From assembly GCA_029210745.1 (NCBI GenBank), contig JARGFI010000003.1, positions 44,381 to 103,604 of the forward strand: a stretch of 59,224 nt of DNA, written 5' to 3'. The DNA is from Desulfuromonadales bacterium. GTDB taxonomy: Bacteria; Desulfobacterota; Desulfuromonadia; Desulfuromonadales; JAHYIW01. Positions within the stretch are counted from its first letter, which is position 1. Every line of letters begins with the position of its first letter. Made by a program: the position numbers and the translations under genes. The notes beneath the pieces were generated by a model. That model worked only from the letters and a program-made list of their open reading frames with translations. It searched no databases and was not told where the DNA came from. Positions 40,127 through 51,685 of this stretch are shown piece by piece.

Positions 40127-40195
40127 AATTACAAAAATTCATGATACTCTCTACGAGAATGATAGAAGAACAGTTATCATTTGAGGGAGGAGACT

Positions 40196-41026
40196 ATGGC
40201 ACGCCCGTTAAGGATTGCGTATCCAGGAGCATTTTATCATGTCACATCGAGAGGCAATGAGCAGAAGGCTGTCTTCAAGAGTCGACGCGACAGGGAAAAG
40301 TTTCTCGAATATTTAGAATCGGCGACGCAGCGTTATGGAGCTGTGATCCATGCCTATTGTCAGATGAGCAATCACTACCATCTTCTTTTGGAGACCCCGG
40401 CAGGAAACCTTTCGCAAATCATGCAGCATATAAACAGCGCCTACACGACCTATTTCAACGTTAAGAGGAAGCGGTCGGGACATCTTTTCCAAGGGCGGTA
40501 CAAAGCATTACTGGTTGAAGCCGACGAATATGCAACCGAACTTTCTCGCTACATTCACCTGAATCCCGTAAGGGCGGCAATGGTCGCCAGACCAGAGGAT
40601 TGGCCATGGTCCAGTTACCGAGGCTTCATCGGTCAAGATCGTGCGCCGGACTGGCTCAAAAGAGAATTCATTCTCAGCTATTTTGGAAAAAAAGCTGCTG
40701 CCGAGAAGAAATACCGCGGATTTGTCGAAGGTCTGCTCAATACAGCATATGAAAGCCCCCTAAAAGATACAGTTGGCACGGCAATACTTGGGTCGGCCGG
40801 GTTCGTTGAAGCGATTACGGCGGAACATCTTACGACAAGAAAGGCGGAAAGGGATCTCCCCGCATTAAACCAATTCGTCCCGCGTCCTACGCTAGAGGAG
40901 ATAGTGCGCGCAGTAAATTTGGTCATAGGCAGCGATGAGAAGTTGGCAAGACAGGCCAGCATGTATCTATGCCACCGGTATAGCGGCGAAAAACTCCGCA
41001 TGATCGGCAAGTTGTTTAAAGTGTGA
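40196..41026 (+). CDS. REP-associated tyrosine transposase (RAYT, Y1_Tnp), truncated by a nonsense codon
   Basis: This 276-residue protein has the single-strand HUH nuclease fold of IS200/IS605-like enzymes: MARPLRIAYPGAFYHVTSRGN, the metal HxH pair H60/H62 in MSNHYHLLLETP, and the catalytic Tyr119 in SRYIHLNPVRAAM, then EDWPWSSYRGFIG. The start ATG 40196 has GAGGGAGGAG upstream. After MIGKLFKV the TGA at 41024 interrupts a frame continuing ESAISEASRLFPRK for 37 codons to TAG 41138; the family motif is xVGESAVSQAS, so GGA has probably become TGA. HUH residues are intact, but the C-terminal helix is lost. Confidence 0.85.
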   Translation: MARPLRIAYPGAFYHVTSRGNEQKAVFKSRRDREKFLEYLESATQRYGAVIHAYCQMSNHYHLLLETPAGNLSQIMQHINSAYTTYFNVKRKRSGHLFQGRYKALLVEADEYATELSRYIHLNPVRAAMVARPEDWPWSSYRGFIGQDRAPDWLKREFILSYFGKKAAAEKKYRGFVEGLLNTAYESPLKDTVGTAILGSAGFVEAITAEHLTTRKAERDLPALNQFVPRPTLEEIVRAVNLVIGSDEKLARQASMYLCHRYSGEKLRMIGKLFKV

Positions 41027-41674: not shown

Positions 41675-41713
41675 GAATTGAGCCCCGTGCATGTAAAGCA
41701 CGAGGCTCAATTC
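41675..41713 (-). terminator. Long hairpin terminating the caspase/transglutaminase unit
   Basis: GAATTGAGCCCCGTGC (41675-41690) and GCACGAGGCTCAATTC (41698-41713) form a 16-base stem with one mismatch and a 7-base loop. It lies 17 bases beyond the stop of the minus-strand gene at 41731. The following T-run is weak, but the stem is one of the strongest in the window. Confidence 0.65.
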
Positions 41714-41730
41714 CGGGAACAGATAAACAG

Positions 41731-43452
41731 CTAGATCTTGAAGCGAATGATTTCCGGGTTGACCGCTTTGAACTGTGGCATCATCATCCCGATATTCGCG
41801 TTGATGTAGGTCGGGTCACAAACGACAAAGCGTTTTCCATCGACAAGGATTGCATCCCCTTCGACCTTTTCGGTGAAGTTGACGGCAGTCGCAATATGTC
41901 CGGGGAAGTGGACGCCAACCACGTCCAGTCCAACAATCCTGGTCACCAGATAGCTGAACAGAATTGATCGATCCTCGCAATCGGAATAACGAAACGCAAC
42001 CGTCTCTTCGGCAAACATGTATTTTTCGCGACCGAATTGCTCATCGTCCGTTTGATATTCAAAGGCCGTCTGCGCAAAGCGCAACAGCATATTAACCGCT
42101 TCAGTTTCACTCTTGCCAGCGACCAGTTTGCCCAGGCCATCGATCAAGCTTTGTTCAGCCTCGGTGGCCAACGGAGCGGCAAAATAGATTGCCCAGTCAG
42201 TCTGGGGATAACTATTGTAAAAAACGAGGGCGTTCCGGTTGTAGCTAACGGGGACGGTAAATTCCTTGTTTTGATAAAGGAAATGCAAGCTCCGCACTTC
42301 ATGTCCCTCGCCAACGCGCGGCACGAGAGGCAACTTGAGTGACAGCAGGCGCTCGGCGCGGGGATAGTCTTTACTGTACGTGTAAACCTTGCCCGGCTTG
42401 CGCTGATCACGAAAATAACTGATGTTGTAATATCTGGTTCCATCCAGCGTGTAGTAGGGTGCCTGATAAACCAGACTGTCGATCGGAGCGAGCAGAAAAA
42501 CGCGATTGTCGCTGTAACCAACCCTGACTCGATAGCCTGACTTCGTCAGCGCGAACCAGGCAAAGAGCTGCGCATCATTCCCCGGACCGTGCAACGCTTC
42601 CCCCGCTTCCTGCACAAACTGGAAGTAGCCCCAGTCGTTCAACTGCAAGGCTTCCTTGACTGTCAACAGGCTGGATAGCATCGGTTCAAAGTCGGCCGTG
42701 CTAATTTTTTCCCAATAAGCGCTGATTTCACGATTGGTGATCTTTGCTCCAGTCGTAACCGCCAACGATCGATCGCACACCACACGCAGTGTACGCCCCA
42801 GATAAGCAACCTCAATCGTTGCTGGCTGCGGAACGTCGGTCGGGGGTTCAGGTTGTGACGGGACAACAATAACCGGCGGTTCAGGTTCAGGTTGTGACGG
42901 GACAACAATAACCGGCGGTTCAGGTTCAGGTTGTGACGGGACAACAATAACCGGCGGTTCAGGTTCAGGCTGTGACGGGACAACAATAACCGGCGGTTCA
43001 GGTTCAGGCTGTGACGGGACAACAGCAACCGGTGGTTCAGGCTGTGGCAGGACAACAACCGGCGGTGGTGGAAGAACCGGGGTGGAAGGTGGCGGGACTG
43101 TCTGTCCCAGCGGCGCAATCACATCGTCAGGTTTTTTAGCCGCCTTGGGAAACTTGACCGGTTTGGGGGTTGGATCTTTGACCAACCCCTCGAACTCGTC
43201 AAACGCCTGCCATTTTTCTTTCAAAAATTCAGCAAAATCGCGGTCACGCTCATCCTTGAACGACTGGATTTCCTGGGCTGATTCAGCATAGAACGCATCC
43301 ATCTCGCGCCGCATTTCATCCTCAATGCTGCCGAAACGCGCCGCTTCCTGATCAGTATCTGAAAAAAACCGGTCAACATCACTGCCCTGTGCGTACGCCA
43401 AACTGCTCATGCAGACAATCATCAGAATGCCATGCCACAATTTAACCCTCAT
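41731..43452 (-). CDS. Exported transglutaminase-like protein with Pro/Glu repeat region
   Basis: This 573-residue protein has a signal peptide (about 1-21, cleaved near AYAQG), a charged coiled-coil-like segment (~25-90), a Pro-rich tract (~95-215) built on the 13-residue repeat PSQPEPEPPVIVV, and a C-terminal domain (~255-573). In the last part RYSDCEDRSILFSYLV, FPGHIATAVNF and VVCDPTYINANIG place Cys492, His519 and Asp546 in the order of the transglutaminase/papain triad. This fold can act as a protease or as a crosslinking enzyme. The start at 43452 has GAGGAG seven bases upstream. It is last in a four-gene minus-strand unit. Substrate unknown. Confidence 0.75.
   Translation of the reverse strand: MRVKLWHGILMIVCMSSLAYAQGSDVDRFFSDTDQEAARFGSIEDEMRREMDAFYAESAQEIQSFKDERDRDFAEFLKEKWQAFDEFEGLVKDPTPKPVKFPKAAKKPDDVIAPLGQTVPPPSTPVLPPPPVVVLPQPEPPVAVVPSQPEPEPPVIVVPSQPEPEPPVIVVPSQPEPEPPVIVVPSQPEPEPPVIVVPSQPEPPTDVPQPATIEVAYLGRTLRVVCDRSLAVTTGAKITNREISAYWEKISTADFEPMLSSLLTVKEALQLNDWGYFQFVQEAGEALHGPGNDAQLFAWFALTKSGYRVRVGYSDNRVFLLAPIDSLVYQAPYYTLDGTRYYNISYFRDQRKPGKVYTYSKDYPRAERLLSLKLPLVPRVGEGHEVRSLHFLYQNKEFTVPVSYNRNALVFYNSYPQTDWAIYFAAPLATEAEQSLIDGLGKLVAGKSETEAVNMLLRFAQTAFEYQTDDEQFGREKYMFAEETVAFRYSDCEDRSILFSYLVTRIVGLDVVGVHFPGHIATAVNFTEKVEGDAILVDGKRFVVCDPTYINANIGMMMPQFKAVNPEIIRFKI
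42851..43039. repeat. 39-base tandem repeat array (four full units and one partial)
   Basis: Four contiguous units begin at 42851, 42890, 42929 and 42968, and a 33-base partial unit begins at 43007. Units differ only by C/T changes and are near identical. They encode the Pro/Glu repeat of the transglutaminase-like protein in frame (39 = 13 codons). Such arrays often change copy number by replication slippage. Confidence 0.92.
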
Positions 43453-43558
43453 TGCAAAGCTCCTCATTCACATCATTTTCGCGCATCCTCGCGCGTCGGC
43501 AACCGGGACAGGGCGGACGCCCCCTCACCGGAAGAAGGGGCGTCACCAACCATCTAAC

Positions 43559-44212
43559 CTATTCGATCAGACCTTGTTCCTGCATATCCTTGAAGAAGGC
43601 AGCCTGCTTTTCAGCCTGTCTTTTGGCAAACTCATCATTCTCTTCTTTGGCTTTTTGCGCGGCCTTGTTTGCTTCACGAGCCATGTTCTTCACGGTGTCC
43701 TTGTAGGCCAGATCAATCTCTTCGGTCGGCACATAGCCGAGCGCAAAATACTGAAAATACGACCCGGTGGGGTTGCGGTATTTTTCAAAGTAATATTCCT
43801 TGACCTTGACCCGTTTCGCCATATTGGTGGCAAGTTGTTTGGTAAACTCTCGGGCAGCAGCAGTCGGATCGATAGCGTCACTTTCCTGACCATAGGAAAC
43901 CTTGGCCTCTTCAAACTTCTTTTTGACCAGCGTCCCCATATACTTGACAACTTCCTCGGTCACACCGCGCCCGGCACTTTCCCGCGCGGAGGCTTCGGTC
44001 TTGTATCGATCGGAGGTGCCGACAAAGAACATCTTGCCCCCCTCGGCATCAGGAATCGACATCGTCCAGACCGGACGCTGTGGCTGCGAGGTCTGAATGA
44101 GCTCCTCAGTATCCATCGCAGCTTTCATTTCAGGCTGAACGGTACCGCCGCCGCAGCCAAAGAGCAGAAACATCGCCAGACCGGCCATTAAAAACCCACT
44201 GAGCTTCTTCAT
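43559..44212 (-). CDS. LPP20-family outer-membrane lipoprotein
   Basis: This 217-residue protein has a lipoprotein signal ending in LFGC (Cys at about residue 20) and an LPP20-like domain: RPVWTMSIPDAEGGKMFFVGTSDRYKTEASARESA, then VKEYYFEKYR and YFALGYVPTEEIDLAY. A charged helix rich in Lys/Glu ends the protein. The domain is a shorter paralogue of the one in the next gene upstream (44259). The start MKKLSGFLM has GAGGAAAAA upstream. It lies 46 bases after its upstream neighbour; an 8-base-stem hairpin (43516-43523 with 43537-43544) lies in the 106-base gap before the transglutaminase-like gene. Confidence 0.8.
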   Translation of the reverse strand: MKKLSGFLMAGLAMFLLFGCGGGTVQPEMKAAMDTEELIQTSQPQRPVWTMSIPDAEGGKMFFVGTSDRYKTEASARESAGRGVTEEVVKYMGTLVKKKFEEAKVSYGQESDAIDPTAAAREFTKQLATNMAKRVKVKEYYFEKYRNPTGSYFQYFALGYVPTEEIDLAYKDTVKNMAREANKAAQKAKEENDEFAKRQAEKQAAFFKDMQEQGLIE

Positions 44213-44258
44213 TTTTTCCTCCTGAGTAGTTTCGGCCAAAGCCGATGTGTTAATAAGA

Positions 44259-46352
44259 TTAGTTTGCAACAGTCGTGATCATCGAATGCGCTTCGCCGTA
44301 AGCAGAACCATTAAGTTCTGCTGATTTTCTGAGGGTGTCCCGGATTGAGCTGAAAGAACCGTGCAACAGTTTCAGACCATTTTCCAGCTCGTCTCCAGCC
44401 AATTCTGGAAATTTTTGCGTCGCCGCAAAAGCCCAGACATGTTCCAGCCCGAAAGGCTCGGCAATGGTGAATTCAAAGCGCTCACGATCTGCTTTGTCGG
44501 GCACTTCGAGATAGGTCCCCTTTGGGTAGAACCCCGCGCCGGAATAACGGTTCGGCAGCAGCTGAATCAGATTCCCGGCAACATCCTCATAAATCAGCAG
44601 GAGATACGCATCGGTGTCAGAGTTGACCAGATAGGAAATCGTCTCCCCGGAGCGGTAAGTCTGACCGTCGCCAAGATGCGAGGTCACCTCAAGTTTGATC
44701 GCATTGACTGCGGGGGGTGCAGAGGTGTCAAACGGCTGCCTTGCCTGCGGCGGAACAAGGTCGGTTCCAGGGGGGAGCAGGGCGCTGTCAAAGCTGGTAT
44801 TTGCGGCCCCCAGCAGCCGGTCACTCCCGGCCTCCTTCAACTCCACATTGAGAAAAACGTCGCGACCCTTCAGGGCATAAATTGCGTTGAGGGCCGCATC
44901 GGCCCCATCAACCGCGGCATGGGTCGCGGCGGCACCCAGCCCCCCCTTGGCAACGACGCTAATCCCGCGCGTTTTAATTGCATGCTCAATCATGTCCTGA
45001 CGATCACCGGTTTGCGGAACGATCACCTCCAGACCGTCGATATTCGCCAACTGTTCGTTGATGCGCCGCTTGAGTTCCAGGGCAAAACCGCTGCCGCAAT
45101 GGGTGTCACCATAGGTGATCGAACCTATTTCCAGCTTTTTCACGGTCAGTTTCTCGTAAGTGGAGCCGGCAAACAACTTTCGCACCATGTTTTTGACTGC
45201 GAGATCGACCCCCGGTTGCCCCTGAATCACCAAAAATTCGGTGCCGACATTTCTCAGCGCGAGGCCGATCATCGGCTCCAGATTATCTTCTTTTTCAAAG
45301 TCAATGTTCACGTAATACTGGCCAGGTTCAATCGCCGGCAGATAAAACGTCGCTTCACCTGAACTACCGGTTCTGGTATCGGCAATCTCAGCCCCGTGTG
45401 CTGCATTGATGCTCAGCGGCAGTCCGGCAACCGGGAGCAACGCCCCGTCATCACTTTTGAACCATCCCCAGGCTTTAAAAACAACATCCTGCGCAGCACC
45501 GATCTCGGTCGTCCCGAACCGCCCTGAGTCCAATATCAGCCGCGAACTTACGGCCCTCGCCCGGCCAGGCAGAAGCGCCTGAAGTTCGCGCGCTTTGGCG
45601 GTCACCGCATCTTCTGCAGCGGAATCTAGCAGCGACTGCAAACGACGGTGTTCAGCGCTAATCGCGGACAACGCCGCCAGCGCCTGCCCATTGGCAATAT
45701 AATTATCCACTTGCGACAATCCTGTCGCATTGGCAGCCACGACTGCGGCAACTTTTTCACTGCGTGATTTATTCTGGGCCTCCGCCTGCTGCCGTGCCCA
45801 CTCCCTGACCCGGTCATACTCAGTCAATGGCACGGAGGCCTTGACGTAATATTTGTAGACATTTTTTTCATGAATACCGTTGCGGGAGATATCATACTGT
45901 TCGAAATAGAAGTCCGTGGCCTTGATCCGGCTGACAAAGGCATCGGCCCCCATTTTGACCATTTTTTCACCGGATACAGACCCATCAAGCCCCTGACTGA
46001 GTTGCCCGGAAATCGACTTGCGGATCGTTTCCTTAACAGACACATTCACCCCGGTGTAATTGACGAATTGTTCAACCGCATCACGCAACGCATCACTGCG
46101 CGCCTCTTTCTCGGAGACAACCCCTTCGGAAGATACGCCGACGAAAAACGCGTAGTGATCATTTTTTTCGGGAGGAGAGAAAACCCACGCAGGTTTATCT
46201 GTCGGCACTGCACGGAGCAGTGTTTTTACCGGCGGATACTGCGTGGCAATCTGCAGTTCTTTTTTCGTGACCGGGTGAGGAGCCGATGCGCAGGACGCGA
46301 GAAACACCGCAACAGGCAACAGACAGCACAGGCTCAATCTGAAAAATAACAT
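44259..46352 (-). CDS. Large lipoprotein with LPP20-like and DUF4384 domains
   Basis: This 697-residue protein has a lipoprotein signal (lipobox LASC, Cys about residue 21), an LPP20-like domain at about 50-190 (KPAWVFSPPEKNDHYAFFVGVSS, FYFEQYD), an alpha-helical segment (~190-275), a central beta region (~275-420) and a C-terminal DUF4384 domain at ~575-690 (YRSGETISYLVNSDTDAYLLLIYEDVAGNLIQLLPN). DUF4384 is often found fused to or beside caspase-like proteases; here it follows the caspase gene in transcription order. The start at 46352 has GGGGGA six bases upstream. Its biochemical role is not known. Confidence 0.8.
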   Translation of the reverse strand: MLFFRLSLCCLLPVAVFLASCASAPHPVTKKELQIATQYPPVKTLLRAVPTDKPAWVFSPPEKNDHYAFFVGVSSEGVVSEKEARSDALRDAVEQFVNYTGVNVSVKETIRKSISGQLSQGLDGSVSGEKMVKMGADAFVSRIKATDFYFEQYDISRNGIHEKNVYKYYVKASVPLTEYDRVREWARQQAEAQNKSRSEKVAAVVAANATGLSQVDNYIANGQALAALSAISAEHRRLQSLLDSAAEDAVTAKARELQALLPGRARAVSSRLILDSGRFGTTEIGAAQDVVFKAWGWFKSDDGALLPVAGLPLSINAAHGAEIADTRTGSSGEATFYLPAIEPGQYYVNIDFEKEDNLEPMIGLALRNVGTEFLVIQGQPGVDLAVKNMVRKLFAGSTYEKLTVKKLEIGSITYGDTHCGSGFALELKRRINEQLANIDGLEVIVPQTGDRQDMIEHAIKTRGISVVAKGGLGAAATHAAVDGADAALNAIYALKGRDVFLNVELKEAGSDRLLGAANTSFDSALLPPGTDLVPPQARQPFDTSAPPAVNAIKLEVTSHLGDGQTYRSGETISYLVNSDTDAYLLLIYEDVAGNLIQLLPNRYSGAGFYPKGTYLEVPDKADRERFEFTIAEPFGLEHVWAFAATQKFPELAGDELENGLKLLHGSFSSIRDTLRKSAELNGSAYGEAHSMITTVAN

Positions 46353-46497
46353 CAAAAATCCCCCAACAAACAAGTTGAAACGACAACGCAAGCAACAGAT
46401 CCATTCAAAGGCAGGCGGAAAACTGCATCAAGGGTCGATCATCAAGCTGCATCCCGATTTTCGTAAAAAATGATGTCAGCAAGAAACAAACACTGGC

Positions 46498-47844
46498 TTA
46501 TTGCTCACCGACAAAAATGACTTTCTTCGCATTCCCCGTAACTTGTGGCGTCTGATCACGCCCGTAGAGTCGACGCGCTTTGTAGGTCACTTCCTCACTG
46601 AGAAATTTTTTCAACTCGGCGACCGTAACGCGGCCATCCTCGTTGCCGAACCCCTCTGCATCCGCCGCCCCGGTTGCACCCTCAAGAAAATTCCTGGTCA
46701 GCAACCCCATTTCAGCCTCTTTGTCCCATGACGCAACTTCCGAAAGTCCGGCGGCAGTGATGACCGTCGCTTGCGGCACACTGGTCTCCGCCTTGACCAC
46801 TTTAAGCGAGATCGACGATGCGTTGCTCACCACGGACCCGCTCGCTGAACCGCCGGAGAAACAGGCATCAATGACCATGGTCACATTCCTGGCGGGGAGT
46901 TGACCAATATTGGCGTAGAGCGTATCGAGAGGATAGCCGTTCAGTTCAACCTTCATCGGGTCGGCATCGACCGGCAACAGATAGCCGCGACCATCCCTGA
47001 GCCCGGGCGCACCATGCCCCGAATAAAAAACAAAAACGTCCGATTCATCAGGGCGCAGCCAATCGTAGAGCTTTCCTTTATAATTTCCCCTGGCCCCGAA
47101 CGTACTGATCAAATCAGCCTGGGTGGCGTCCTTGAGCAGGATCACATTCCCCTCACGATAACCGAGCGTTTCGGTGACGTAACGGTACATGGCATCGGCG
47201 TCGTTAATCGCAAAATCGACATTGGGCACATCCTTATTTACGGCGGAATAGTTGCGATTACCAACAATAACCGCGATACCGTAACGATTCTGCTCCGCCG
47301 CCTTCGGCATGTTGATAGTGAATTTTCCGGTGCCGCCGGGGGACGCCTGTGCTGAACGGGCGATCTGTCCCACCGGCACAACCTCCGCCTCAACCTTCCC
47401 CGCCAGCTTTGCGGCATAAGCGCGCAATTTGGGGTGTGCATCCTGCTGCCCGGATTTTTGTAACGCCGCGAAATAATCTGACCCGCGATAACCGATCTTG
47501 TAGATCGCAACCAGCGCCGCTTTGCGCGTATTGGCATCACGATCATCGGCCATCACCTGGAGCAGGCGCGGCACGGCGCTCTCGGCAGCCGGGCCAATCT
47601 TGCTCAAGATCCCCGCAGCGGATTTGCGCACCCGCGCGTCGCGATCAGCCAGCGCTTCGATCATCTTCGGTACGGCAGTGGGGGCCGTCAGTTCATGCTT
47701 GTCATGAATACCGTAGGCCTCGTACCACTGCCGCCGTGCCTCACTTTGCGCAGGAAAAGTAATGACTAGCAAGCACGCTACAATACACAAAACGGCATTT
47801 CTGACCATCATTCGAGCCTCTGTCCCTTGTGCCAACCATTTCAT
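46498..47844 (-). CDS. Exported caspase-like protease (C14) with HEAT repeats
   Basis: This 448-residue protein has a signal peptide (~1-36, hydrophobic core IVACLLVITF), two to three HEAT-like helical repeats (~55-140: VPKMIEALADRDARVRKSAAGILSKIG) and a caspase-fold domain (~185-448). It opens NRYGIAVIVGNRNY; His277 in VFYSGHGAPG and Cys328 in MVIDACFSGG form the catalytic dyad. A late GNEDGRVTVAEL loop resembles a calcium-binding EF-hand turn. The start at 47844 has GGAGG six bases upstream, which decides against the longer frame. It is first in the four-gene unit. Cleavage targets are unknown, but the neighbouring lipoproteins and transglutaminase-like protein are candidates. Confidence 0.86.
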   Translation of the reverse strand: MKWLAQGTEARMMVRNAVLCIVACLLVITFPAQSEARRQWYEAYGIHDKHELTAPTAVPKMIEALADRDARVRKSAAGILSKIGPAAESAVPRLLQVMADDRDANTRKAALVAIYKIGYRGSDYFAALQKSGQQDAHPKLRAYAAKLAGKVEAEVVPVGQIARSAQASPGGTGKFTINMPKAAEQNRYGIAVIVGNRNYSAVNKDVPNVDFAINDADAMYRYVTETLGYREGNVILLKDATQADLISTFGARGNYKGKLYDWLRPDESDVFVFYSGHGAPGLRDGRGYLLPVDADPMKVELNGYPLDTLYANIGQLPARNVTMVIDACFSGGSASGSVVSNASSISLKVVKAETSVPQATVITAAGLSEVASWDKEAEMGLLTRNFLEGATGAADAEGFGNEDGRVTVAELKKFLSEEVTYKARRLYGRDQTPQVTGNAKKVIFVGEQ

Positions 47845-48139: not shown

Positions 48140-49486
48140 ATGTTGCAGAGTAATCACACAATGACACCGGACCCTGCCGCACTCCCGGCCATGCGCGTCC
48201 TTCTCATCAATCCTCCCAACAGTGGCCGCAGCATCCCCGAGGAAGAGTATGGCATCGATGCGATAAAGCCTATTTTTCGCGGCGAACCCTTGGGGCTCGA
48301 AGCCCTTGCCGGTGCTCTTCCCGAGCATGAGGTGCGTATCTTCGACATGAAATCGACGGCAGATCCCGTCGTCGATGAGGTGAACACCTTCGCCCCGGAC
48401 ATTGTCGGCATCACCGGCATGACCTGCGAAGCCAACACCATGCTTAAAATCGCCCGCGAAATTCGCGCAGTCAGCCGGGCCAGGATTGTCGTCGGGGGGA
48501 TTCACGCCAGCAACAATCCCGAATTTTTTAATCGTGAAGAAATCGATTTTATTGTTATCGGCCTCGGCAAGCGCAGCTTTCGCGATCTGATCACGCAACT
48601 GGGAAACGATTCGACCTCCCCCGTTCCTGACGGTATTGCCCGCACCGCACCCGGTCGCACATTGTCGTTCACCCCGCGCCAGTACGGAAAAGCGGATCTG
48701 GATGAAGACTATCCGCCGCGTTATGACCTGGTCGAAAAATACCGTTCCAAATACCTTCTTTCCGCTGTCGGTGCCCAATTCGGGATGGTTGTTTCCGCTT
48801 ACGGCTGCCCTTATCGGTGTAATTTCTGTTGCATAGAGCCGCTCACCGGGGGACGTTATCTGACCAATGAAATCGCATCCACCGTCAGAGACATAAAACT
48901 GCTCCCCGACGTTAATTTTATTCGCCTGGTCGATGCCAATTCGTTCGGCGACCCGGACCATGCAATGGCTCTGTGTGCGGCTCTGCGCGAAAGCGGCATC
49001 AATAAGCAATTCATGGCCGATGCCCGCGCTGACACAATCGTCAAGCACCCAAAGATGATGCGCGCCTGGAAAGAGATTGGATTGCGTTCCGTCATCGTCG
49101 GTTTTGAAAATATTAACAATGAGGGGCTGGAGGCCCTGAACAAAGGCAATACAGCTTATCATAACACCGAAGCAATTCGTATTCTTCACGACATCGGCAT
49201 TTCCATCGTCGGCGATTTTATCGTCTCCCCCGACTACGATCACACCGACTTTGATTTACTTGAGCAGTACCTTGCCGACAACATAATCGACTTGCCGATT
49301 CTGACCGTATTAACCCCGTTGCCCGGAACTGCGGTTTATTATAAAATGAAGGATCGAATCACCAACCATGATCTCGACTATTACACCCTGACGAACGCTG
49401 TCATGCCGACCAGGTTGTCCGAAAAAGAATTTTATCTGCGCTATGCAAACATTCTGCAGCGGACCCTCCACGGTGCCAAACTGTAG
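48140..49486 (+). CDS. B12-binding-type radical SAM enzyme
   Basis: This 448-residue protein has an N-terminal cobalamin-binding-like Rossmann domain (MRVLLINPPNSGR, DIVGITGMTCEANTMLKIA, RIVVGGIHASNNPEFF) and a radical SAM barrel with the iron-sulphur motif YGCPYRCNFCC (C223, C227, C230). ADARADTIVKHPKMM, GFENINNEGLEALNKGN and LTPLPGTAVYYKM are typical of this group, which includes methyltransferases and ring-forming enzymes. The start is uncertain (ATG 48140 or 48161). It opens a divergent group with a ketosynthase 20 bases downstream. Its substrate is unknown. Confidence 0.85.
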   Translation: MLQSNHTMTPDPAALPAMRVLLINPPNSGRSIPEEEYGIDAIKPIFRGEPLGLEALAGALPEHEVRIFDMKSTADPVVDEVNTFAPDIVGITGMTCEANTMLKIAREIRAVSRARIVVGGIHASNNPEFFNREEIDFIVIGLGKRSFRDLITQLGNDSTSPVPDGIARTAPGRTLSFTPRQYGKADLDEDYPPRYDLVEKYRSKYLLSAVGAQFGMVVSAYGCPYRCNFCCIEPLTGGRYLTNEIASTVRDIKLLPDVNFIRLVDANSFGDPDHAMALCAALRESGINKQFMADARADTIVKHPKMMRAWKEIGLRSVIVGFENINNEGLEALNKGNTAYHNTEAIRILHDIGISIVGDFIVSPDYDHTDFDLLEQYLADNIIDLPILTVLTPLPGTAVYYKMKDRITNHDLDYYTLTNAVMPTRLSEKEFYLRYANILQRTLHGAKL

Positions 49487-49506
49487 TAAAAAGGGAATTT
49501 GTTCTC

Positions 49507-50652
49507 ATGGATGTGTTTATTTCCGATATCTCGGTATTCTTGCCTAACGCTCCGGTTGAAAACGATCAGATCGAGCATATCCTCGGGATGGTGCATGACA
49601 CACCCTCCCGCACCAAAAATATAGTCCTGCGCAACAACCGGATTAAACGGCGCTACTATGCCATCGACCCCGCTACCGGCGCAACAACGCACTCCAATGC
49701 ACAGCTGGCTGCGGAGGCGATTCGTGCGCTGCATCCATACCCGGGGTTCTCTCCTGATGACATGACCTGTCTGTGCTGCGCAACATCACAAGCAGACCAA
49801 TTGATGCCGGGACATGCCTCCATGGTTCACGGCGAACTGGCCAGCCGCCCGTGCGAAATCGTCAGCACTGCCGGAGTCTGCGTCTCCGGAATGATGGCGC
49901 TCAAATATGCGTTCATGAATGTCGCCCAGGGGTTGCACGCCAGTGCGGTCGCCTGTGCCTCCGAGCTGGCTTCACCAACCATGCGGGGACGCATGTCCGA
50001 GTTTTCCGACCCCCCGCATGGCGATCTGGAAAATAACCCTGAACTGGCGTTCAATGCCGACTTTCTCCGCTGGATGCTTTCCGACGGTGCCGGGGCAGCC
50101 TATCTCACCGCTGAACGCCCGCCCGATCGTCTGGCACTGCGCATTGACTGGATTGAAATCATCTCCTATGCCAATGAGATGGAAACCTGTATGTATATGG
50201 GGGCAAACAAAAATCCCGATGGTTCCCTGACCTTCTGGCGTGATTCCGCTTCTCCACAGGATATTATTCGCGACCGGATGCTTCTTTTGCAGCAGGATGT
50301 CAAGCTGCTGAATGAAAAGGTCATTCCGCTGACGGTGGGACGCCCACTCACCAGCCTGATACAAAAGTACGGGATCAGCGGAGAAGACTTTGACTGGTTT
50401 TTGCCCCACTTTTCATCGCACTATTTTCGTCAGCCGGTTTACGATCAGATGAAGGCTGTCGGCTGCGAAATTCCTGATCAGCGCTGGTTCACCAATTTAT
50501 ACGAGAAGGGGAATACCGGTTCAGCCTCGATCTTTGTCAGCATGGAGGAACTGCTCCATTCCGGGAGGCTTAAAGCAGGCGAACGGATCCTCTGCTACAT
50601 TCCGGAAAGCGGGCGTTTCGCAACCTGTTTTGTCCAACTGACCGTGGTTTGA
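49507..50652 (+). CDS. Ketosynthase III-like enzyme (StlD/DarB-type)
   Basis: This 381-residue thiolase-fold protein has a Cys nucleophile at 125 (STAGVCVSGMM), His301 (FLPHFSSHYF) and Asn336 (KGNTGSASIFVSMEELL), the Cys-His-Asn triad of FabH-like enzymes. Its N-terminus, FLPNAPVENDQIEHILGM and RNNRIKRRYYAIDPATG, resembles from memory the StlD/DarB subgroup, which condenses two acyl chains toward cyclohexanedione or resorcinol lipids. It follows the radical SAM gene by 20 bases. Product unknown. Confidence 0.82.
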   Translation: MDVFISDISVFLPNAPVENDQIEHILGMVHDTPSRTKNIVLRNNRIKRRYYAIDPATGATTHSNAQLAAEAIRALHPYPGFSPDDMTCLCCATSQADQLMPGHASMVHGELASRPCEIVSTAGVCVSGMMALKYAFMNVAQGLHASAVACASELASPTMRGRMSEFSDPPHGDLENNPELAFNADFLRWMLSDGAGAAYLTAERPPDRLALRIDWIEIISYANEMETCMYMGANKNPDGSLTFWRDSASPQDIIRDRMLLLQQDVKLLNEKVIPLTVGRPLTSLIQKYGISGEDFDWFLPHFSSHYFRQPVYDQMKAVGCEIPDQRWFTNLYEKGNTGSASIFVSMEELLHSGRLKAGERILCYIPESGRFATCFVQLTVV

Positions 50653-50752
50653 CGACAAATTATCCGCCTGAAATTTCAACTTGCAATCGACCTGAACATT
50701 AATTACCATCAATCCTGGTGTTAATATTTCCCCGATATGGATAAAGTCAACG

Positions 50753-51685
50753 ATGTCGATGACACAAAACAAACCCCTTGACCTTGCCGCGCTCCTCGAT
50801 CATCGCGATCCGCAATCCATTCTCAACGAAGTTCTGTTGATCTGGAAACAGATTTATCCTACTGAAAATACAGATAAAATTTTCGCAGCGTGGGCATGGA
50901 CAGTGCGTCTCTACCGGGGTGAAGTTGCGGGATACGCCGCATGTCGCACCGAGTATCATGATCTGCAGCACGCCACGGACACGACCCTTGCGCTGATGCG
51001 CATGATTCACGGTGCGGCCCGTTTCGGCATCGCAGTCCCCGCAGCAATTGCGCAAATCTCGATCGCGGCGGCATTACTGCACGATGCCGGATTCATCCAG
51101 AACGCAAAGGACGTGCAGGGAACCGGGGCAAAACACACCAAGGTTCACGTTCAGCGCAGTCAGATGTTTTTTAAACTTTTCACCGCCGCGCATCAATGGT
51201 CCACCGAAGAGCTGTCGCTGGGATGTCGTTTGATCGATTGTACCGACCTCGCAATCGAACCGGAAAAGGTCGATTTTCCCGAAGCAGCCAGCGCCCTGAC
51301 GGCAAGGATGTTGGCCGCCGCCGACCTCTGGGCACAAATGGCTGATCGGGTCTATCTCGAAAAACTTCTTTTTCTCTTCTTTGAACTGCGCGAGGGGGGA
51401 ATCAACGTGTTTCTGGATGAGGAGGATCTACTGACAAAAACTCCGGACTTTTATGCTCTGGTCGAGCAACGGCTGAGGCTCCTTGCTCCGGTCATCGACG
51501 GGTTTCTGACGATCCATTTCCGCGAACGCTGGAATATTGAGGGCAACCTCTATCGACAGGGAATTGAGCGTCAACGCGCCTACCTGGAGAAAATCATGAA
51601 AGTTGCGACGGATTTCCCGTCACGTCATCTGCGCCGTGACGGAATCGTCGATCGCGTCAAGGCACATTTTTCGACCGTGTCGTGA
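50753..51685 (+). CDS. HD-domain phosphohydrolase
   Basis: This 310-residue protein has metal-binding histidines in TEYHDLQHATDT (H69, H73) and ALLHDAGF (H110, D111), the H...HD arrangement of HD and cyclic-nucleotide phosphodiesterase folds, and GTGAKHTKVHV after it. Later helices match no other domain. It begins 100 bases after the ketosynthase; the gap contains ATTAATTACCA...TGGTGTTAAT (50698-50722), an imperfect inverted repeat. Whether it belongs to the same transcript is not clear. The substrate is unknown. Confidence 0.8.
   Translation: MSMTQNKPLDLAALLDHRDPQSILNEVLLIWKQIYPTENTDKIFAAWAWTVRLYRGEVAGYAACRTEYHDLQHATDTTLALMRMIHGAARFGIAVPAAIAQISIAAALLHDAGFIQNAKDVQGTGAKHTKVHVQRSQMFFKLFTAAHQWSTEELSLGCRLIDCTDLAIEPEKVDFPEAASALTARMLAAADLWAQMADRVYLEKLLFLFFELREGGINVFLDEEDLLTKTPDFYALVEQRLRLLAPVIDGFLTIHFRERWNIEGNLYRQGIERQRAYLEKIMKVATDFPSRHLRRDGIVDRVKAHFSTVS

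Follow-up and report, generated by a model that had tools for sequence, protein, structure and literature searches.

LpoB is an outer-membrane lipoprotein that activates the peptidoglycan synthase PBP1B, and caspase homologues are often discussed in the context of cell death. HP1457 of Helicobacter has been described as an LpoB homologue (PMC11394524), DUF4384 is known to accompany the orthocaspases of cyanobacteria as an accessory domain (PMC7475262), and surface or fratricidal roles were raised for exported caspase homologues in a 2012 survey (PMC3501461). Members or look-alikes of these families are combined in four minus-strand genes of a Desulfuromonadales bacterium, located in a 59,224-nucleotide stretch (hereafter, the window) at positions 44,381 to 103,604 of contig JARGFI010000003.1 (assembly GCA_029210745.1; 2.72 Mb, 118 contigs). 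They encode an exported caspase (gene 1), a large lipoprotein carrying DUF4384 (gene 2), a small LPP20-like lipoprotein (gene 3), and an exported protein of predicted transglutaminase fold (gene 4). It is quite probable that this operon is an LPP20/LpoB-linked envelope system. The full explanation, towards which we lean slightly, is that the locus represents a compact form of an LPP20/LpoB-type envelope system that is widespread but uncharacterised, and in which an exported caspase is facultative.

With LpoB and the LPP20-LpoB-COG3014 clusters, the operon shares a lipoprotein (gene 2) with a predicted LpoB-like domain, and in related loci the same LPP20 and transglutaminase-like genes have true LpoB as a neighbour. 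Unlike LpoB, however, the gene 2 domain has no LpoB profile match, is set between LPP20-like, macroglobulin (MG)/Ig-like, and DUF4384 domains, and belongs to an operon without a penicillin-binding protein (PBP); a class A PBP gene is present in the window's genome. Like Helicobacter Lpp20, Campylobacter FlgP, and Vibrio FlgT, which are lipoproteins of SHS2-like fold, the products of genes 2 and 3 are LPP20-like by profile, but they fall under the Pfam LPP20 threshold and are unlinked to flagellar genes. Gene 1 resembles orthocaspases and bacterial metacaspases (C14) in its His/Cys dyad C14 domain and its HEAT repeats, whereas it is exported, coupled to a transglutaminase-like gene, and has DUF4384 on a separate lipoprotein. 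Gene 4 has the Cys-His-Asp triad of LapG (BTLCP) and transglutaminase-like cysteine peptidases and, by a weak model, may share their core fold, but differs by its long N-terminal helix and proline-rich tether, by the lack of any Pfam match above cut-off, and by its neighbourhood. Finally, MltC replaces the neighbour of genes 2 and 3 in one genome (G096) and is also found in the cluster of another (G319), yet it is a different enzyme, whose N-terminal helical resemblance to gene 4 is weak (E 0.0085). A common N-terminal domain of the two was set aside, as this match is composition-biased. In agreement with the initial annotation of this DNA, which knew of no characterised system with such a composition, no description of this combination with an exported caspase was found in the literature searched (mostly without subscription journals). 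The parts are known families or look-alikes of such families.

The predicted operon and its products

The four open reading frames (ORFs) all lie where the initial annotation had placed them, within the span 47844-41731, and the hairpin reported at their end is real. The features are as follows.

46498..47844, minus strand: gene 1, exported caspase of 448 amino acids (aa) (Pfam, dyad conservation, tree, N-termini)
46534..47280, minus strand: Peptidase_C14 domain of gene 1 (Pfam)
44259..46391, minus strand: gene 2, 710-aa lipoprotein, TTG start or ATG at 46352 (Pfam DUF4384, predicted model)
45828..46229, minus strand: LPP20-like domain of gene 2, residues 55-188 (HHalign)
44784..45215, minus strand: LpoB-fold domain of gene 2, residues 393-536 (predicted fold comparison)
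44415..44660, minus strand: DUF4384 domain of gene 2, residues 578-659 (Pfam)
43559..44212, minus strand: gene 3, small LPP20-like lipoprotein, 217 aa, lipobox Cys20 (homologues, HHalign)
41731..43467, minus strand: gene 4, exported protein of predicted transglutaminase fold, 578 aa (triad conservation, weak model fold)
42845..43041, no strand assigned: 39-bp tandem repeat, 5.1 copies, coding the PEPEPPVIVVPSQ linker of gene 4 (repeat analysis)
41675..41713, minus strand: 16-pair hairpin after gene 4 (folding energy, single copy in genome)

The genes are separated by gaps of 106 (145 from the gene 2 ATG), 46, and 91 bases. Export signals had been claimed for all four products, two of them as lipoboxes, and this stands: genes 1 and 4 begin with signal peptides, while gene 2 has the lipobox LASC (Cys34) and gene 3 the lipobox LFGC (Cys20), all four being read from the sequence. 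Compared with a sister species (G104), all four genes are under purifying selection, with ratios of nonsynonymous to synonymous substitution rates (dN/dS) of 0.11-0.31 (0.16 for gene 1), and of 0.13-0.20 for two neighbouring genes. Judged from the sequence, the four genes form one predicted exported operon.

The AlphaFold2 model of gene 2 (predicted local distance difference test, pLDDT, 70.7) comprises, in order, an LPP20-like domain, a helical stretch, an MG/Ig-like domain, an LpoB-fold domain, and DUF4384 (PF14326). The latter, already named in the initial annotation, is clearly recognised by Pfam (E 4.7e-18, 65.5 bits for a cut-off of 27) and is the only DUF4384 in the window's genome. Among solved structures, residues 393-536 match the C-terminal domain of LpoB best (4q6z; Z 12.1, root-mean-square deviation (rmsd) 2.9, 122/135 aligned), and Foldseek gives an E of 1.3e-5 to LpoB. 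As HHalign detects no sequence similarity to LpoB in this region (0.3%), this argues for a shared fold rather than LpoB membership, and sequence homology of this middle domain to LpoB was rejected at the present profile depth.

The LPP20 label given earlier to genes 2 and 3 survives in a weaker form. No match to Pfam LPP20 (PF02169) was obtained among the window proteins at E up to 1, but HHalign relates the LPP20-like domain of gene 2 to the gene 3 family (99.4%) and to neighbouring Pfam-LPP20 proteins (90.5%), and gene 3 to the LPP20 profile (93.8%); by sequence comparison, the label thus appears to hold at the profile level only, and not by Pfam. Homologues in three other genera share 34-39% identity with gene 2 and 49-53% with gene 3. 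Scanning genome contigs with the gene 3 alignment returned only four loci, owing to strict peptide patterns, and profile searches of solved structures with genes 3 and 4 gave nothing useful. Viral contigs scanned with gene 2, or with the gene 4 alignment, contained no relatives of either.

Gene 4 consists of a signal peptide (AYA, followed by Q), an N-terminal helix motif, a proline-rich linker whose length differs in the sister species, and a Cys497/His524/Asp551 core. This triad, reported earlier as Cys492/His519/Asp546, is invariant in eight homologues from two phyla; only the numbering has changed, as it now counts from an upstream ATG. The transglutaminase-like label comes from fold comparison, the Pfam score for Transglut_core2 (13.1 bits) being below the cut-off of 23.5. 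On a weak model (pLDDT 46), the core is closest to LapG (Z 8.2, rmsd 4.5, 119 aligned), with transglutaminases at Z of about 7. Taken from this model, the fold scores would fit both a protease and a transferase, without deciding between them.

Gene 1 combines a signal peptide, HEAT repeats at residues 52-113 (HEAT_2, E 7.5e-9), and a C14 domain at residues 189-437 (E 1.2e-14, 55 bits for a cut-off of 21.4). The catalytic dyad proposed in the initial annotation, His277/Cys328, is confirmed by its invariance across six homologues. In a tree of 30 caspase domains, all six caspases linked to the module fall inside one 13-member subfamily (support 95/97), in which, by inspection, nearly every member starts with a signal peptide or a lipobox. 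Three of the four caspases in the window's genome belong to this exported subfamily. The HEAT repeats, the predicted LpoB fold in gene 2, and the linkage of gene 4 to LpoB, MltC, and COG3014 loci described below are additions to the initial annotation.

The hairpin downstream of gene 4 (-29.8 kcal/mol, z -6.3) is terminator-like but U-poor, without a U-tract. At the same position, after the transglutaminase-like gene, the sister species has a different and larger hairpin of unrelated sequence (L028:12750-12840; 25 perfect pairs, -56.9 kcal/mol), and the window's stem has no second copy elsewhere in its genome; a terminator function is, therefore, plausible. The lack of a further copy also led to the rejection, for this genome, of an origin as a repetitive extragenic palindromic (REP) element. 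An IS200-like Y1 transposase of the REP-associated type is encoded at 40181-41026, about 650 bases from the hairpin. Positions 48140-51685 encode, divergently transcribed, a B12-binding radical SAM protein, a ketoacyl-ACP-synthase-III-like protein, and a 310-aa protein without Pfam match; these neighbours are also retained in the sister species.

Recurrence of the genes and related loci

Order-wide counts were made over 136 genomes. Relatives of gene 2 over most of its length occur in five of these, those of gene 4 in six, including a weak one, and caspases in 13, which is an undercount, the caspase of genome G070 having been missed. All four genes are found together in three different orders. 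The sister species has the order of the window (caspase, gene 2, gene 3, gene 4), in G070 (JAJRQB010000085) gene 4, gene 2, gene 3, and caspase follow one another on a single strand, 27-76 bases apart, and in MGTA01000022 (RIFOXYD12_FULL_50_9) gene 4 runs divergently to gene 2, gene 3, and caspase. In G128 (GWC2_61_20), a caspase-gene 4 pair and a gene 2-gene 3 pair each stop at a contig edge, which makes the full set likely there as well. G096 encodes an MltC-like lytic transglycosylase (SLT E 1.3e-22) immediately upstream of genes 2 and 3, on a contig that stops about 1 kb beyond. The co-occurrence in a fixed order that the initial annotation proposed to search for was, thus, found in part: the set recurs across genera, but because the same genes cluster in differing arrangements, it is gene content that is conserved, and order only within the genus. 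Of the five genomes that have gene 2, four also have a caspase at the locus (that of G128 accompanies gene 4 on the separate contig), which is not expected by chance given how few genomes of the order carry caspases.

Away from the four-gene order, the transglutaminase-like gene adjoins LPP20 lipoproteins in two phyla, usually together with LpoB, COG3014-type, MltC, or DUF4384 genes. One strand of G319 encodes successively an LPP20-like protein, LPP20, MltC (Mltc_N and SLT), a COG3014-like protein, LpoB (Pfam E 6.5e-40), LPP20, and the transglutaminase-like protein. In the distant genome G214, a first contig carries LptD, a FlgT_N protein, a GNA1162-like protein, LpoB, a COG3014-like protein, LPP20, and an LPP20 protein with DUF4384 (DUF4384 E 7e-11), and the continuation carries the gene 4 relative, two TRL lipoproteins, a DUF6567-like lipoprotein, and a caspase. 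Because the two halves of the gene 4 relative, split inside its proline-rich stretch, are on contig ends, these two contigs probably join within it. The COG3014 type is presumed for the lipoproteins that sit between LpoB and LPP20 and match nothing in Pfam. LPP20 genes also adjoin the gene 4 relative in G178 and G132.

Evidence from Bacteroidota is limited to two records. Bacteroides finegoldii NZ_OY725910 encodes an LpoB/FlgT_C-like protein, DUF6175, two LPP20 proteins, a hypothetical protein, and a relative of gene 4 that shares its N-terminal helix motif. This record (NZ_OY725910.1) is named 'plasmid 8' (101 kb) and contains ordinary chromosomal genes, e.g., dprA and peptidase U32; it is possibly a mis-assembled or excised chromosomal piece. 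On the human-gut contig MT839828, a DUF4384-like protein (E 2.4e-4) adjoins a gene 4 relative, and the resemblance of a 149-aa protein to LPP20 is weak (HHalign 18%). MT839828.1 is labelled 'Bacteriophage sp.', and its transglutaminase-like gene stands beside an ORF resembling phosphate acetyltransferase. A phage origin was rejected, as this sole 'phage' match is an unverified 4-kb gut contig, judged bacterial.

By its links to LpoB, MltC, and COG3014 loci, the transglutaminase-like gene points to the peptidoglycan interface. That the operon acts on or through peptidoglycan is, in our judgement, an evenly balanced proposition. LPP20-LpoB-COG3014 clusters without gene 4 are found in the order as well, LpoB being present in 67 of the 136 genomes.

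Several observations weigh against reading the locus as a variant of this type. The LpoB sequence profile (PF13036) has no Pfam match in gene 2, the LpoB fold class is common to CsgG, TolB, and FlgT domains, and the model of gene 4 is weak. The module caspases do not form a single clade (three changes, with 1/500 shuffles as low), caspases of the same subfamily also stand alone in other genomes, and no caspase is found near the transglutaminase-like loci of G178, G319, and Bacteroides. Since it is absent from these loci and its subfamily occurs alone elsewhere, the caspase is not obligatory; from its sequence relationships, it would be an exported type with either more than one gain at this locus or several losses from it, and is, hence, termed facultative. 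Genome G007, of the same order, shows an unusual expansion, with ten caspase-domain matches. One exported caspase that stands alone there has a DUF4384/gene 2-like protein (L121:5214-6653; E 6e-5) encoded nearby, which may represent another kind of caspase-DUF4384 pairing.

Competing explanations

The first alternative, which we hold to be unlikely, is a LapG-like surface protease system, where gene 4, as a periplasmic cysteine protease, would trim adhesins or lipoproteins anchored in the outer membrane and the caspase would be a second protease in the cascade, with no part for peptidoglycan. It is consistent with the gene 4 core having LapG as its closest solved structure, and with an exported protein bearing a Cys-His-Asp triad. 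Nevertheless, true transglutaminases score nearly as high on what is a weak model, and the recurring neighbours are LpoB, MltC, COG3014, and LPP20.

A self-killing function has also been considered, by which the activated caspase would let a wall-linked enzyme open the envelope, in programmed lysis or fratricide. The cell-death association of caspase homologues, the fratricidal or surface roles raised for exported ones in the 2012 survey, and a weak PADLOC caspase match of gene 1 (E 1.4e-9) speak for this. However, no partner gene of a known anti-phage system was matched by PADLOC besides this caspase domain when the four operon proteins were scanned, and no toxin, pore, or NTPase sensor gene accompanies it. 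As the lipoproteins and gene 4 recur without caspase beside housekeeping wall genes, lysis becomes improbable, and the locus looks like an envelope system rather than a cell-death or phage-defence cassette.

Genes 2 and 3 could otherwise form outer-membrane rings or disks, as FlgP and FlgT do, with the enzymes clearing the peptidoglycan that surrounds a trans-envelope machine. LPP20, FlgP, and FlgT share an SHS2-like fold, and some of them form rings (PMC12222027); FlgT_N and FlgT_C domains are, moreover, found in related loci. Such a motor accessory has little chance of being the right explanation, however, as no flagellar, pilus, or secretion genes were recognised next to the operon, either in the window or in any related locus that was read. 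As for unrelated exported genes made neighbours by chance, the optional caspase and the lack of a shared order beyond the genus would allow it, but it is hardly credible that genes as rare as these (5, 6, and 13 of 136 genomes) should cluster repeatedly, in at least three lineages and in different orders.

Proposed role and significance

The reading as a compact LPP20/LpoB-type envelope locus retains the core of the initial annotation, which proposed an envelope proteolysis or crosslinking system: a recurrent exported set and a cell-envelope system stand, whereas the fixed order and strict LPP20 membership do not. Its function is likely to be controlled proteolysis or remodelling at the interface between outer membrane and peptidoglycan, for which we infer the following biochemical roles. 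The products of genes 2 and 3 would be outer-membrane lipoproteins that form a scaffold on the inner side of that membrane, from which the LpoB-fold arm of gene 2 may extend into the peptidoglycan layer and dock a wall enzyme. Gene 4, tethered by its helix and proline-rich stretch, would be a cysteine enzyme, hydrolase or transferase, with wall peptides or envelope proteins as its substrates. The HEAT-caspase would be a facultative regulator which, on an envelope signal, could cut a component of the complex or another envelope protein, and so turn remodelling on or off. Processing of another operon product by the caspase is a tentative idea, to be doubted rather than assumed. The more specific proposal of a periplasmic switch, in which the HEAT-regulated caspase would cleave a component of the LpoB-like/LPP20 complex or gene 4 and, thereby, control peptidoglycan or outer-membrane remodelling, is decidedly speculative.

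Lipoprotein clusters of the LPP20/LpoB type occur widely, and little is understood about them beyond E. coli and Helicobacter. The locus provides a physical context for DUF4384, and names a testable set of partners for the caspase: an LpoB-fold lipoprotein, an LPP20-like lipoprotein, and a tethered cysteine enzyme. Bacterial caspases have nearly always been treated as proteases of death or defence, and this locus sets an exported caspase in an envelope context; the switch, if true, would represent a caspase serving envelope homeostasis rather than death or defence.

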